Origin: Kiritimatiellia bacterium
Lineage (GTDB): Bacteria > Verrucomicrobiota > Kiritimatiellia > RFP12 > DVOR01
Length of the DNA: 64,000 bases
Assembly (NCBI GenBank): GCA_017558005.1
Contig: JAFYWN010000023.1
Span: 1 to 64,000, forward strand
Direction: 5' to 3'
This document shows, piece after piece, positions 50,025 through 55,933 of the stretch. The stretch's first letter is position 1. Every line of letters begins with the position of its first letter. Under the pieces are notes generated by a model. The model made no database searches and was not told the DNA's origin. It saw nothing but the letters and a program-made list of their open reading frames with translations. The position numbers and the translations under genes are program-made.

Positions 50025-50100
50025 TGGTGGCGGGTGAGGGTCACGATCCCCCGACACGCGGATTATGATTCCGCTGCTCTACCAACTGAGCTAACCCGCC
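50025..50100 (-). tRNA. tRNA-Met (CAT), elongator or Ile2 type, unusual T-loop
   Basis: GGCGGGT/ACCCGCC acceptor, D-stem GCTC, anticodon loop ATCATAA on a GCGGA/TCCGC stem, encoded CCA. It lacks the GGG/CCC pairs of initiator tRNA. The T-loop reads ATCGTGA in place of TTCRANN, so positions 54 and 58 carry A and T rather than T and A. A CAT anticodon modified to lysidine would read Ile AUA instead; sequence alone does not decide. Confidence 0.9.
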
Positions 50101-51010: not shown

Positions 51011-51385
51011 TTAACGAAAAAGGTGTTTCGCTAAACCCATCCCTGCCCCTGCTGCCAAGAGTCCCGTGACATTTTGCAACAACACATTCAATGCACATTT
51101 GCCATACTGCGCCGCTTCAAGCAACCGCACACTCTCCAAAGCAAAGCTACTAAACGTGGTAAATGCGCCCAAAAATCCAATAAAGAGCACCGGAAGATAG
51201 TCGCACGATTGAAACTTTGCGCGGCAAAGGACAAAACAAAATCCAGCAATCAATGCCCCCACGACATTGACCATGAGTGTCCCCCACGGGAAGCTTGCCG
51301 AAATCGGGCTCAACCATCGTACGCACCCATAGCGCGTCAAGGTGCCAATCGCCCCAGCCAATGCAATTAAAAGAAGTAATTTCAT
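51011..51385 (-). CDS. fluC: Fluoride channel Fluc/CrcB
   Basis: 124 aa, four helices. IALAGAIGTLTRYGCVRWL, FPWGTLMVNVVGALIAGF and GFLGAFTTFSSFALESVRLL contain the conserved G-x-x-x-R, the N-x-x-G of the second helix and the F-x-T-F-S-S-F box that lines the fluoride path. It forms dual-topology dimers that export F-. An intrinsic-terminator-like hairpin sits just ahead of the start codon (51399-51425), hinting at attenuation. I cannot find the conserved core of the crcB fluoride riboswitch. Confidence 0.95.
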   Translation of the reverse strand: MKLLLLIALAGAIGTLTRYGCVRWLSPISASFPWGTLMVNVVGALIAGFCFVLCRAKFQSCDYLPVLFIGFLGAFTTFSSFALESVRLLEAAQYGKCALNVLLQNVTGLLAAGAGMGLAKHLFR

Positions 51386-51398
51386 GCCACTCCTAAAA

Positions 51399-51425
51399 CA
51401 AAAAAAGACGAGCCAACGCTCGCCT
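51399..51425 (-). terminator. Terminator-like hairpin in the fluC leader
   Basis: On the minus strand a GGCGAGC/GCTCGTC stem with 4-nt loop (51418-51424 with 51407-51413), then a run of seven T, 14 bases before the fluC ATG. In this place it can act as an attenuator or stop a read-through transcript. Confidence 0.6.
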
Positions 51426-51540
51426 CTCTTCCGTTTTTCCTTTTTATGGTAAACCTATATGGACTGAAGTCCAACTTTGGAGATGGTCGAGCGGGCGGCG
51501 AAAGTTATGGAGGAAATTGTAGCACTTTTGGAGTGTGTAT

Positions 51541-51573
51541 AAAAAAAGCAGCCGAGGTTTTCGGCCGCTTTTT
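51541..51573 (-). terminator. Terminator after the 99-aa protein gene
   Basis: An 8-bp GC-rich stem with 5-nt loop (51548-51555 with 51561-51568), flanked by A run and T run, so it works both ways. Confidence 0.75.
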
Positions 51574-51582
51574 GTGCGTTGT

Positions 51583-51882
51583 CTATTCTGTGAAACAAGT
51601 TGACGCAATGGCTTTGAATTGTTCGGCGTTGCGTTTGGTTTCTCTTAGCATTTCGGCGGTGACAGCATCTTCGGGCCCAAGCCTTTCAGCCATGTCTGCA
51701 AGCTTGTTCGCAGATGCAAGCATTTCCTCTAAAAGGTCGCCGATCGCTTGTTTACGTTCTTTTGCGCCAGCCTTGAGAGCCTTTGCAAGTTTTTCCGTGA
51801 CGTAAATCACATCTTTGTTTTTTGTGGTGCGATTGCCCCACCTTGCAGCAGCAGCAATTTGTGCGCGCGTCTTTGTATCCAT
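51583..51882 (-). CDS. Unrecognised 99-aa soluble protein
   Basis: 99 aa with a perfect AAGGAGG site five bases before the ATG. The first residues TRAQIAAAARWGNRTT resemble the short basic start of many phage and plasmid DNA-associated small proteins; then come acidic, Ala/Lys-rich helices without further features. I do not recognise a family. It has its own terminator. It lies with two larger unknown genes between tRNA-Met and tRNA-Ala. DNA-binding is a guess from the N-terminus only. Confidence 0.72.
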   Translation of the reverse strand: MDTKTRAQIAAAARWGNRTTKNKDVIYVTEKLAKALKAGAKERKQAIGDLLEEMLASANKLADMAERLGPEDAVTAEMLRETKRNAEQFKAIASTCFTE

Positions 51883-52028
51883 ATCAACCTCCTTGGAAAA
51901 CTTCTAAAAGCCAATCCTTGAACACATTGGAGCAGTCATGCTTGGACTGAGTTCAAAAACTTCCTTCATTTTAGCATTTATGTTTAGTATCTGCACATGT
52001 TTTATTCTTTTTTGTTCGAATTAGTTTT

Positions 52029-52832
52029 TCAATCAACATACGAATCTAACGAGGGAAGGATTGGATGTTCGCCTTTCCAATAGGCCAGCAAATGCGGTTG
52101 CTCTTCAAAAAGATGAATGACATCTTTCATAAAAGCAGTGTTGTTTTTGTAACTATCATTGTATGCTTCACTGCCATTCCATCGGGCAAGGACAAGACGT
52201 TCTAAAAGTTGAACTGCGCCACGTTCATAGGTTTCTCGGTCAAAGAAGAGGTCATATTCTTCTTCGTATTGGGTTAAACTAAGGCGAATCATTTGTGGTG
52301 AATGGTGCACCTTCGTTTCCCAAAAACCGCTACACCCAGGTTCGCCGCATCCACAGGTCAAATAATCGCCCGAATAGCTCCCACGTAAAGACCCCACGAT
52401 GCCATAAATCTTCAAACATCCCGCCAATGGCTTCTCTTTTCCTGGTGGCACAATCGAGAAGATTGTCCGATCAAATGGAGACTCATAAATGATTTGATGC
52501 GCATCTTGAATTTGCGCGCGGGCAGGCGTCTTTGGAATCTCTATCGACGGGAATTCCCTTTGAATCAACCGCCGCATCTTCTTACTAATTATTTCCCATG
52601 GTAATTTTGGGGAAAAGCATTGAGAAAAGGCGGTTCGCGTCTTTTCATTTTGGACGCAACTCTTCATGAGGCACAACCACGCTTCTGGGGTTAGCCGTTC
52701 AAATGGAATCCATTCCGCATGGCACGCATCTACAAGGAGCAGTTCTACACAGTCCAGCGCTGAGAGTTCTGCTTGATGCGCTTGAATAAAGGCTAACCCT
52801 TCGTGTTTTAATTTATCCCATAAATTGTACAT
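52029..52832 (-). CDS. Unrecognised 267-aa protein with Cys-rich finger
   Basis: 267 aa, cytoplasmic (no signal or membrane segment). The only distinctive site is LTCGCGEPGCSGFWET near residue 165, a CxCxxxxC arrangement that may bind zinc or be structural, followed by a His-His and a Tyr/Glu-rich segment. The N-terminus is a helical block. It shares a presumed operon with the 547-aa gene 15 bp upstream, and has AAGGTG seven bases before its ATG. No known family comes to mind. Confidence 0.72.
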   Translation of the reverse strand: MYNLWDKLKHEGLAFIQAHQAELSALDCVELLLVDACHAEWIPFERLTPEAWLCLMKSCVQNEKTRTAFSQCFSPKLPWEIISKKMRRLIQREFPSIEIPKTPARAQIQDAHQIIYESPFDRTIFSIVPPGKEKPLAGCLKIYGIVGSLRGSYSGDYLTCGCGEPGCSGFWETKVHHSPQMIRLSLTQYEEEYDLFFDRETYERGAVQLLERLVLARWNGSEAYNDSYKNNTAFMKDVIHLFEEQPHLLAYWKGEHPILPSLDSYVD

Positions 52833-52847
52833 ATTTACACCTTTTAT

Positions 52848-54491
52848 TTATTCAAATGATACTTTTTCCCATCTTTCCATCGTCTGTAAGGCTACAATGC
52901 CCTGCGCCAAATAGGTGTGTAACATTTCCAATACGCGCGCTAATGGCACAGATTTTACTGTCCTGAATTGCCATTTCACATTGTGTATCTGCCATTCCAC
53001 CTGCCAAAGACCATCTTCCGTTTGAATCCCTTGGAAAAACTCCGAGTATACTAATGGCACAACGATAAAAAAGTCTTCTTCCTGACAGCGTGAGAGATAT
53101 TCCTCTAATTCCTTTACCGACTCAAACCATCCATTCTCGTAAACGAATGAAAACCGCTCCTCTGGAAGAGATTGATATCCCGACAATAACGTATAACGAA
53201 GCACCTTGCCTGTTGCATCCACCGCCACTAATAACGACGTATAGAGTTCTGATAACTGACGCGGCGAAGGGCATGCACACCACAAATGACGTTCGCCTGT
53301 ACTCGGCGCGTGAGCGACATGTAACACATTCAGTTGATCAGCTAAAGTCTCAAACGAATACAACAGATGTTGGCTCACCTCTGGAATCTGTTCTAAAATC
53401 GCAATCAACTCCTCGCGCTTCAAAGGTGGTAATGCCTCCAAATCATCAGGCTTATACCGTAAATAATTTGCGTAAGTCACAAAGGTAGGATAAACCTCTG
53501 CCACGCTTGCTTCCAAACCGCCGCCAAAATCCTCCACTTTAGGATAATGTTCAAGGCCGCGCGGCAAGAGCATCCGATCCACAGATGCCATCTCCTCCAC
53601 CGCTTCTTCTGTAGGCGTGGGCTCCGTTTCGTCTTCTACCGCTTCTGCAGCTTCCTCTGCAAGGAATACTTCCTCGGGATAATGAATCGTAGCCCGCGCA
53701 AACGTTTTCTCTGGAAGTGAAGGCGAAAACCAACCAAATAATGCCGCCTTACCCGCAATCGCATCTCCCACGCGTGGGATGTAATGCTCCTTAATGCAAT
53801 GTTCAGGCACCAATAATTGCCACGAAAAACCGTCCGGCAGATTTGGTGGCGCACTCCACACCATTAACTTCCAACAAAGCTCACCCTCTACACACTCAAA
53901 ATTCACATCCTCCACGACCGAATAGAACTCCGCCATCGCAGGCGCATCCTCCAAATCACACCCCGACAACGCACGCACGTGTGATAAATCAAATCGTTCG
54001 GGCAACCCTTTCCCCTGCCGACAGTCTGCACCCGATAAAATACAATGCTCATTGCGACACTCCAAATAGACGCCCAACCCCGTAATCGTCAAATGAGCAA
54101 GCCCACCCGCTCGATAATGGTCAAAAAGCGCACGATCCCGCCACGCATTTGCTACCACAAAAGGTAGACCACACTCACACTCAGAATCAAACAGCACCTC
54201 TGAATGCCAAATCGGCTCGTCATTCGCTATACGATAAAAAGGCGACACGCAAAAAATATCCCTCGGCTTTAAATTTCGCCACGGGCGCACCAACACCTCA
54301 AAGCGACGAATCCCAAGCCCCTCCTCCGTATGTACAGTCTCATAGAGTAATTCCACCGACTCCGACAACGATGCCGTCAAAAAAGGAGACGCATCCTCCT
54401 CTAAAGCCTCCACCAATTCAGCCTCACCCACGCGAGCCATAGCCACATCCAACAACATCTGTATCTCAGGAAAGAAATCCATCTCGTACAT
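52848..54491 (-). CDS. Unrecognised 547-aa protein with Cys motifs and acidic linker
   Basis: 547 aa from ATG 54491 (GTG 54500 and ATG 54482 are alternatives; AGGTG lies about five bases before 54491). Residues ~95-165 have four to five Cys (CECGLPF, LECRNEHC, GADCRQG), possibly a metal site. Residues ~275-300 form an acidic linker (AEEAAEAVEDETEPTPTEEA). The C-terminal ~200 residues alternate strands and helices. There is no signal peptide. Cotranscribed with the 267-aa gene. I do not recognise it; the pair is the best candidate here for an uncharacterised two-gene system. Confidence 0.72.
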   Translation of the reverse strand: MYEMDFFPEIQMLLDVAMARVGEAELVEALEEDASPFLTASLSESVELLYETVHTEEGLGIRRFEVLVRPWRNLKPRDIFCVSPFYRIANDEPIWHSEVLFDSECECGLPFVVANAWRDRALFDHYRAGGLAHLTITGLGVYLECRNEHCILSGADCRQGKGLPERFDLSHVRALSGCDLEDAPAMAEFYSVVEDVNFECVEGELCWKLMVWSAPPNLPDGFSWQLLVPEHCIKEHYIPRVGDAIAGKAALFGWFSPSLPEKTFARATIHYPEEVFLAEEAAEAVEDETEPTPTEEAVEEMASVDRMLLPRGLEHYPKVEDFGGGLEASVAEVYPTFVTYANYLRYKPDDLEALPPLKREELIAILEQIPEVSQHLLYSFETLADQLNVLHVAHAPSTGERHLWCACPSPRQLSELYTSLLVAVDATGKVLRYTLLSGYQSLPEERFSFVYENGWFESVKELEEYLSRCQEEDFFIVVPLVYSEFFQGIQTEDGLWQVEWQIHNVKWQFRTVKSVPLARVLEMLHTYLAQGIVALQTMERWEKVSFE

Positions 54492-54599
54492 AATCAACAC
54501 CTAAAATAAAAACGTTTAAGCAAACGTTTAATCACTCACAGAAAACTTAGCACACCTATATCAGAGAAATAAATGCCCCAAAATGCGGCTAAGCCGAAT

Positions 54600-54632
54600 A
54601 AAAACAAAAAACACACCGCAACGCAGTGTGAT
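54600..54632 (-). terminator. Terminator after tRNA-Ala
   Basis: On the minus strand a CACACTGC/GCGGTGTG-type hairpin (54612-54630) then TTTTTTGTTTTT. Confidence 0.75.
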
Positions 54633-54710
54633 CTTCAAGAATCTTAATAAAAATTCATTAACTTTTGGGGTTTGGAGGCGATAAGTCATCGCCTGCATTA
54701 ATCCTTTTTA

Positions 54711-54786
54711 TGGTGGAGGTAAGGGGAGTCGAACCCCTGACCTTTTGAATGCCATTCAAACGCTCTACCAACTGAGCTATACCCCC
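54711..54786 (-). tRNA. tRNA-Ala (GGC)
   Basis: GGGGGTA/TACCTCC acceptor (one G-T pair), anticodon loop ATGGCAT on a TTTGA/TCAAA stem, T-loop TTCGACT, encoded CCA. 76 nt. Confidence 0.96.
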
Positions 54787-55294: not shown

Positions 55295-55933
55295 TTAAAA
55301 GCCGGCTGCGCGGTTTAAGTCTTCAATCACGTAGGGGAAGTCCGCATAGTAGGCGCTTTCCTTACTACAATGCTCCCACGTGAGAGGGATTAGTTTAGTA
55401 ACGAATTGTCCACCCTTTATTAATTCAAAATAAACAACGTGTTCGTCGTTGTTAATCTTATTAACGGAGACGATTGTTTTTAGTTTTTCAAACGGAATGA
55501 CTGGGATTCCAATGATTAAGCCTTCCATCTCTTCAAATGAAAGGACACTGAAGGAGTCAATCTTAAACTCAAAAAGTGTTTCATGAACTCCCCTTGCAAA
55601 GGTGGGGACAAAGTGCCAACTATTTCGATTTTCAATTGCCTCAAGGGTGCCAGGTTCTACAGTCTCCACGAGGCGTCCATCCTTTTTGTGTAAGAAGGAG
55701 GCAGAATAGTAATCGTCTTCAGGAAATAACAGATCCACCGATGACCGGCACCACACGGTAAACGACACGACGGCGTGATTTTTGAGTTGTTTAAGCGTGG
55801 GGGGCCCCACAAGCAGAAGTTCCATCTCTACAGGCGCAGAGGGCTCGTCACTTGCGATGATTGGACCGTGCGAAACACAACCCGCCCCAAAGCAGACCCA
55901 TAAACAGCACCATGCCAACATCCGAATCTTCAT
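55295..55933 (-). CDS. Lipoprotein of unknown function
   Basis: 212 aa. The signal peptide with WVCFGAGC gives the lipid-bearing Cys at about residue 19. The mature part is rich in beta strands and polar residues and lacks a motif I can name. It stands alone, 208 bp from the V-ATPase K gene and far from others; it is AT-richer than the neighbouring ATPase operon. Confidence 0.75.
   Translation of the reverse strand: MKIRMLAWCCLWVCFGAGCVSHGPIIASDEPSAPVEMELLLVGPPTLKQLKNHAVVSFTVWCRSSVDLLFPEDDYYSASFLHKKDGRLVETVEPGTLEAIENRNSWHFVPTFARGVHETLFEFKIDSFSVLSFEEMEGLIIGIPVIPFEKLKTIVSVNKINNDEHVVYFELIKGGQFVTKLIPLTWEHCSKESAYYADFPYVIEDLNRAAGF

Follow-up and report, generated by a model that had tools for sequence, protein, structure and literature searches.

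Several described systems resemble the locus reported here. Genomic islands and islets that target tRNA genes are inserted at the tRNA 3' end, are delimited by direct repeats, leave the tRNA intact, and show patchy spread and lower GC content. Orphan-immunity islets and acquired interbacterial defence (AID) clusters consist of laterally acquired immunity-type genes without toxins (PMC7400221; PMC10470768); in the recombinase-associated AID system, an array of immunity genes is accompanied by a recombinase. Polyimmunity proteins of polymorphic toxin systems carry several domains per chain (PMC3482391), and Imm-ank, a known immunity partner, is a common component of these proteins. The immunity family Imm1, an alpha+beta domain described as having an "aromatic and W at C-terminus", is paired with SCP1.201 deaminases (PMC3482391), the type to which DddA belongs (PMC7901873); the structure PDB 6U08 is the complex of DddA, an interbacterial deaminase, and its immunity protein DddI (PMC10442228).

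The locus lies in a window of 64,000 nt (the whole stretch of DNA that was analysed, contig C23 of a 2.05 Mb assembly of a Kiritimatiellia bacterium), and the source order includes MAGs labelled Lentisphaerae and Verrucomicrobia. The locus shares the listed properties of tRNA-targeted islands; however, it is very small, has no integrase gene inside and has a core repeat of 13 bp. Like the orphan-immunity islets and AID clusters, it appears to hold laterally acquired immunity-type genes without toxins, but these encode two large proteins of undescribed families instead of arrays of small known Imm genes, and the two cargo genes are not accompanied by a recombinase. Its 547-aa product resembles polyimmunity proteins in the number of domains per chain and in an ankyrin fusion of one homologue, whereas its domains match no named Imm profile by sequence. 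For the C-terminal domain of this protein, DddI/Imm1 (PF14430) is the best structural match and a Trp near the C-terminus is shared; unlike DddI/Imm1, the domain comes without a significant sequence match and no partner deaminase was seen. Finally, two homologues (G025, G049) are placed directly upstream of cas3, as accessory genes of type I-C CRISPR-Cas systems may be, whereas this islet is without cas genes.

An insertion at the 3' end of tRNA-Ala(GGC)

The gene order on the minus strand, starting from tRNA-Ala(GGC), is 547-aa, 267-aa, 99-aa, crcB/fluC, pnuC and tRNA-Met; the three genes with which the original prediction was concerned are all present in the ORF list. The features of the region are as follows:

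50025-50100: tRNA-Met(cat), found by ARAGORN; outside the element
51390-51437, minus strand: displaced original tRNA-Ala trailer and T-run terminator, directly upstream of crcB
51438-51450: direct repeat copy 2, at the far end of the element, adjoining the displaced tRNA trailer
51451-54701: inserted element, 3251 bp between the repeats (period 3264 bp), delimited by comparing joined flanks with empty sites
51583-51882, minus strand: 99-aa ORF, basic protein, weakly ribbon-helix-helix-like
52029-52832, minus strand: 267-aa ORF, helical N-terminal part and a CxCGxxGC...H domain
52848-54491, minus strand: 547-aa ORF (ORF list), multidomain protein
54612-54630, minus strand: terminator-like hairpin (pattern match only), inside the element, downstream of tRNA-Ala
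54702-54714: direct repeat copy 1, TCCTTTTTATGGT on the plus strand and ACCATAAAAAGGA on the minus strand, covering the tRNA CCA and trailer
54711-54786, minus strand: tRNA-Ala(GGC), found by ARAGORN and Rfam RF00005; integration target, its encoded CCA end intact thanks to the repeat

An insertion of 3.26 kb (about 3.3 kb) is sited exactly at the 3' end of tRNA-Ala(GGC), and both of its ends carry an exact 13-bp direct repeat, ACCATAAAAAGGA on the minus strand, that includes the tRNA CCA; a repeat of this length was reached in 0 of 200 shuffles. In the window, tRNA-Ala runs into ACCATAAAAAGGATTAATG, and the expected trailer, ACCATAAAAAGGAAAAACGGAAGAGAGGCGAGCGTTGGCTCGTCTTTTTTTG, is found 3264 bp off, directly upstream of crcB. 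We compared the 3' end of the same tRNA-Ala in the genus, using alignments from 13 of the 16 other genomes. A TAA-rich trailer directly adjoins the encoded CCA in 13/13, and a hairpin with a T-run comes soon after the trailer in nearly all of them. The trailer directly follows tRNA-Ala in G010, G011 and other relatives; in G010 (L055), of the same genus, tRNA-Ala, trailer and crcB are adjacent, as in an empty site. When the window flanks were joined at the repeat, they aligned to G010 through the tRNA, the trailer and the start of crcB (score 269), whereas the alignment of the unjoined window sequence ended just beyond the repeat (score 193). Joined flanks also aligned to G011 (L054) through tRNA and trailer. 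Since the joined flanks match G010 throughout, the G010 locus is an empty site, and the element corresponds to 51451-54701 plus one repeat. This comparison establishes the insertion and its mobile-element nature. The terminator-like hairpin inside the element is likely to be a replacement for the displaced terminator of tRNA-Ala.

Integrated accessory DNA, as had been proposed, is thus borne out by the repeats, the displaced trailer and T-run, the empty site, and the lack of these genes in nearly all relatives. We also looked for homologues at this locus in every relative and for matches to housekeeping families, and found neither. The proposed limits of the block fared less well: pnuC, crcB/fluC and tRNA-Met are outside the element, and the true boundaries are at 51438/51451 and 54701/54714. 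The lower GC noted earlier was confirmed (mean 0.458 in the element versus 0.540 in the window, with lower values in only 14 of 608 equal-length sliding windows); however, GC alone is weak evidence, because low GC is also seen in a neighbouring gene for a 212-aa protein (0.459) and at the window start. The neighbouring gene (55295-55933), lipoprotein-like and without a family match, is between tRNA-Ala and V-ATPase genes and may be a second accessory piece. The V-ATPase flank is not syntenic in relatives and therefore does not help in dating the insertion. On the other side of the element, crcB/fluC (51011-51385) is itself patchy in the genus (5/17 genomes), and at the Rfam gathering threshold the window yielded no fluoride riboswitch. 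A tandem duplicate of tRNA-Ala(GGC), approximately 456 bp apart, was observed in L065 (G014, same genus).

The element has no ORF for a recombinase or integrase, and in the whole genome only two matches to the tyrosine-recombinase profile (PF00589) were detected, both elsewhere and probably of XerC/D type. Islets that lack an integrase are commonly described as defective or as mobilised in trans; the lack of a recombinase suggests that either the element was moved in trans or its integrase was lost. We counted against our main reading, given below, both this lack and the core repeat, which is short for a tyrosine integrase. We rejected the alternative of a transposon that duplicated 13 bp of its target, as inspection of the sequence revealed no inverted repeats at the element ends.

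Domains and distribution of the encoded proteins

The genes for the 547-aa and 267-aa proteins are on the same strand with a gap of 15 nt, and the operon suggested earlier is therefore plausible; the 99-aa gene is about 147 bp away from this pair. The 547-aa gene has an alternative in-frame GTG at 54500 that would give 550 aa, but homologues begin at the MYE/MYD with which the 547-aa form starts. No reliable match emerged for the 547-aa and 267-aa proteins in Pfam, NCBIfam, PHROGs or PADLOC, and collections of plasmids, phages and viral contigs contained no relative.

With a pI of 4.6, the 547-aa protein is acidic. It is built of modules: an N-terminal region that carries the conserved PRVGD motif and is common to G014, the acidic linker noted earlier at residues ~280-305, a region at ~346-439 whose structural matches are weak and cystatin-like (Z up to 6.8), and, at ~447-544, a C-terminal domain resembling Imm1/DddI. 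The C-terminal domain is present without the N-terminal part in G084 and G062. The structural model is modest (mean pLDDT 41), with the C-terminal domain mostly at ~50-86. The best structural match of this domain is 6u08_B, with Z of 9.3, which is slightly above the 7-8 that the fold-search tool gives as typical for unmatched models (rmsd 2.5 over 88 residues; the next row has 6.8). Chain B of 6U08 is presumably DddI, as its residue numbering, 7-123, fits DddI and not DddA. A likeness to Imm1 had been flagged as a lead ahead of the fold search, and W541, near the C-terminus, is invariant in four full-length homologues, so that the C-terminal aromatic/W feature of Imm1 is present. Foldseek returned no significant match for the 547-aa model, sequence searches of the PDB gave no credible match, and profile A5 did not recover 6U08. 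No member of the family matched any Imm profile of Pfam, Imm1 (PF14430) included; PF14430 likewise had no match in the 162 genomes of the order, where the controls gave none either. We therefore do not claim membership in Imm1.

The Cys clusters noted earlier as possible metal sites stood up in one protein only. In the 547-aa protein, C145 and C206 alone are invariant in four sequences, and a metal site is unsupported because most Cys are not conserved. In the 267-aa protein, C160, C162, C167 and H176 are conserved in two full-length homologues, and this CxC...C...H pattern may form a small putative metal knuckle; the model of this protein, at pLDDT 47.5, did not have the quality that a fold search needs. 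The 99-aa protein is basic and has a weak likeness to ribbon-helix-helix DNA-binding proteins. A weak similarity to cyclodipeptide synthases (E 0.004-0.009, well under the cut-off) was rejected because it spans about one third of the family length.

All three proteins have a patchy distribution. The 547-aa protein has three close homologues (G025, G049 and G058; ~30% identity) among the 161 other genomes of the order, together with three further divergent or partial homologues, one of which is in the same genus (G014) at another locus. None of the 16 other genomes of the genus has the 267-aa protein; a direct search of 388 phylum genomes found it in two, its own and G051, and a weak profile lead, phrog_8242, led to two full-length homologues in G139 and G090 (L077:4636-5298 and L078:4691-5335). 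The G051 sequence (L079, 5367-5920) is a fragment spread over two frames that overlap, and it probably represents a decayed copy. The 99-aa protein was absent from the 161 other genomes of the order. Relatives of the two large proteins (L077:3608-5298, L078:4691-5999 and L081:3785-5253) are approximately 0.7-3.7 kb from tRNA-Tyr, tRNA-Trp and tRNA-Val genes; near these tRNA genes, direct repeats of the tRNA end reach only the 8-10 bp expected by chance.

These data bear on the possibility that the islet is selfish or decaying DNA without present benefit, a remnant of a larger element that lost its recombinase. The lack of an integrase inside, with only two tyrosine-recombinase matches in the genome, and the fragmentary 267-type relative in G051 are in keeping with decay. 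However, neither large ORF is interrupted, and homologues from different families of the order, at ~30% identity, still share the conserved residues; together, these observations suggest selection on the protein families, and we regard decaying DNA as an unlikely explanation.

A toxin-antitoxin or addiction unit, in which one large protein would be a toxin and the other, or the 99-aa protein, its antidote, with the islet kept in the genome as a result, appears very unlikely. The arrangement of a two-gene operon with a small basic, weakly ribbon-helix-helix-like protein is reminiscent of such units, and no other maintenance function is visible in the islet; however, homologues of the 547-aa and 267-aa proteins also occur without each other, no toxin fold was recognised, a large acidic multidomain protein is unlike a toxin or an antitoxin of this kind, and the 99-aa gene is apart from the operon.

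Neighbourhoods of the homologues

The 547-type homologue in G058 is fused to ankyrin repeats. In G139, an ankyrin protein of the family of this fusion (45% identity, 236 aa) is encoded directly upstream of the 267-type gene. Together with the adjacency of the 547-aa and 267-aa genes in the window, these ankyrin links suggest that the two families act together. It is worth keeping in mind that ankyrin repeats are widespread, being found in many systems, which we counted against an immunity function, along with the location of two homologues upstream of a cas operon. Neither the element nor the homologous loci that were read contained a recognisable toxin gene, SCP1.201-type deaminases included.

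The 547-type homologues in G025 (L013:1-5892) and G049 (L014:1-5492) are a few nucleotides upstream of cas3 of type I-C; in G025, cas3 is followed by cas5d and csd1, and in G049, an HTH-ImmA/IrrE gene is upstream of the 547-type gene. The 267-type homologue in G139 is downstream of an MmeI-type restriction-modification gene and is followed by a SWIM-domain gene. The adjacency to cas3 and the MmeI-type neighbour make phage defence a serious rival explanation: the 547-aa protein would work with, or regulate, type I-C CRISPR-Cas or another phage defence system, and the islet would be mobile defence cargo. Defence genes are frequent cargo of tRNA-borne islets, which also counts in favour of this rival. 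Conversely, the two cas-linked homologues are 86% identical and may therefore represent a single event, there are no cas genes in the element or near the other homologues, no enzymatic domain was recognised, and PADLOC models match no protein of the window and, in the homologues, only the ankyrin or SWIM parts. On balance, we consider phage defence somewhat improbable, but it is the leading rival.

Orphan immunity as the preferred reading

We infer, with a probability of about 0.5, that the islet most likely provides orphan immunity to toxins from other bacteria. As the comparison shows, a small mobile islet entered by site-specific integration where tRNA-Ala(GGC) ends; it would either have been mobilised in trans or have lost its integrase. 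The recombination core of ~13 bp comprises the CCA and the trailer, so that the tRNA remained intact while its own terminator was displaced to the far end. The cargo would be the two-gene operon, whose products are most likely cytoplasmic proteins of the orphan immunity type. The 547-aa protein would be a composite, polyimmunity-like protein, the DddI/Imm1-like C-terminal domain of which may attach to an incoming toxin domain of bacterial origin and inhibit it; the target is possibly a toxin that acts on nucleic acids, e.g., a deaminase. The 267-aa protein could be a further module of immunity, one with a probable metal knuckle of the CxC...C...H type, and the 99-aa protein either a DNA-binding regulator or a relic of a mobility module. 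With respect to the role proposed originally (defence, toxin or stress), a generic defence role stands as possible, and the evidence favours toxin immunity over a toxin or stress role.

Islets with immunity- or defence-type cargo are a kind already known (PMC7400221). In the present case, from a little-studied group, the tRNA islet is clean and minimal: its two ends are resolved to single-base precision, and a relative has the empty site. Two protein families that are named in no library used here come to light with it. A bolder proposal, which we hold to be quite doubtful, is that the two families and their ankyrin link represent a portable, broad-spectrum immunity module of Lentisphaerae/Verrucomicrobia-type bacteria, carried here on a minimal tRNA-Ala islet and also wired into type I-C CRISPR operons; if true, it would join inter-bacterial toxin immunity with phage defence. 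If the two proteins are immunity proteins, these bacteria would face toxin attack by their neighbours and gain protection on a very small piece of mobile DNA.
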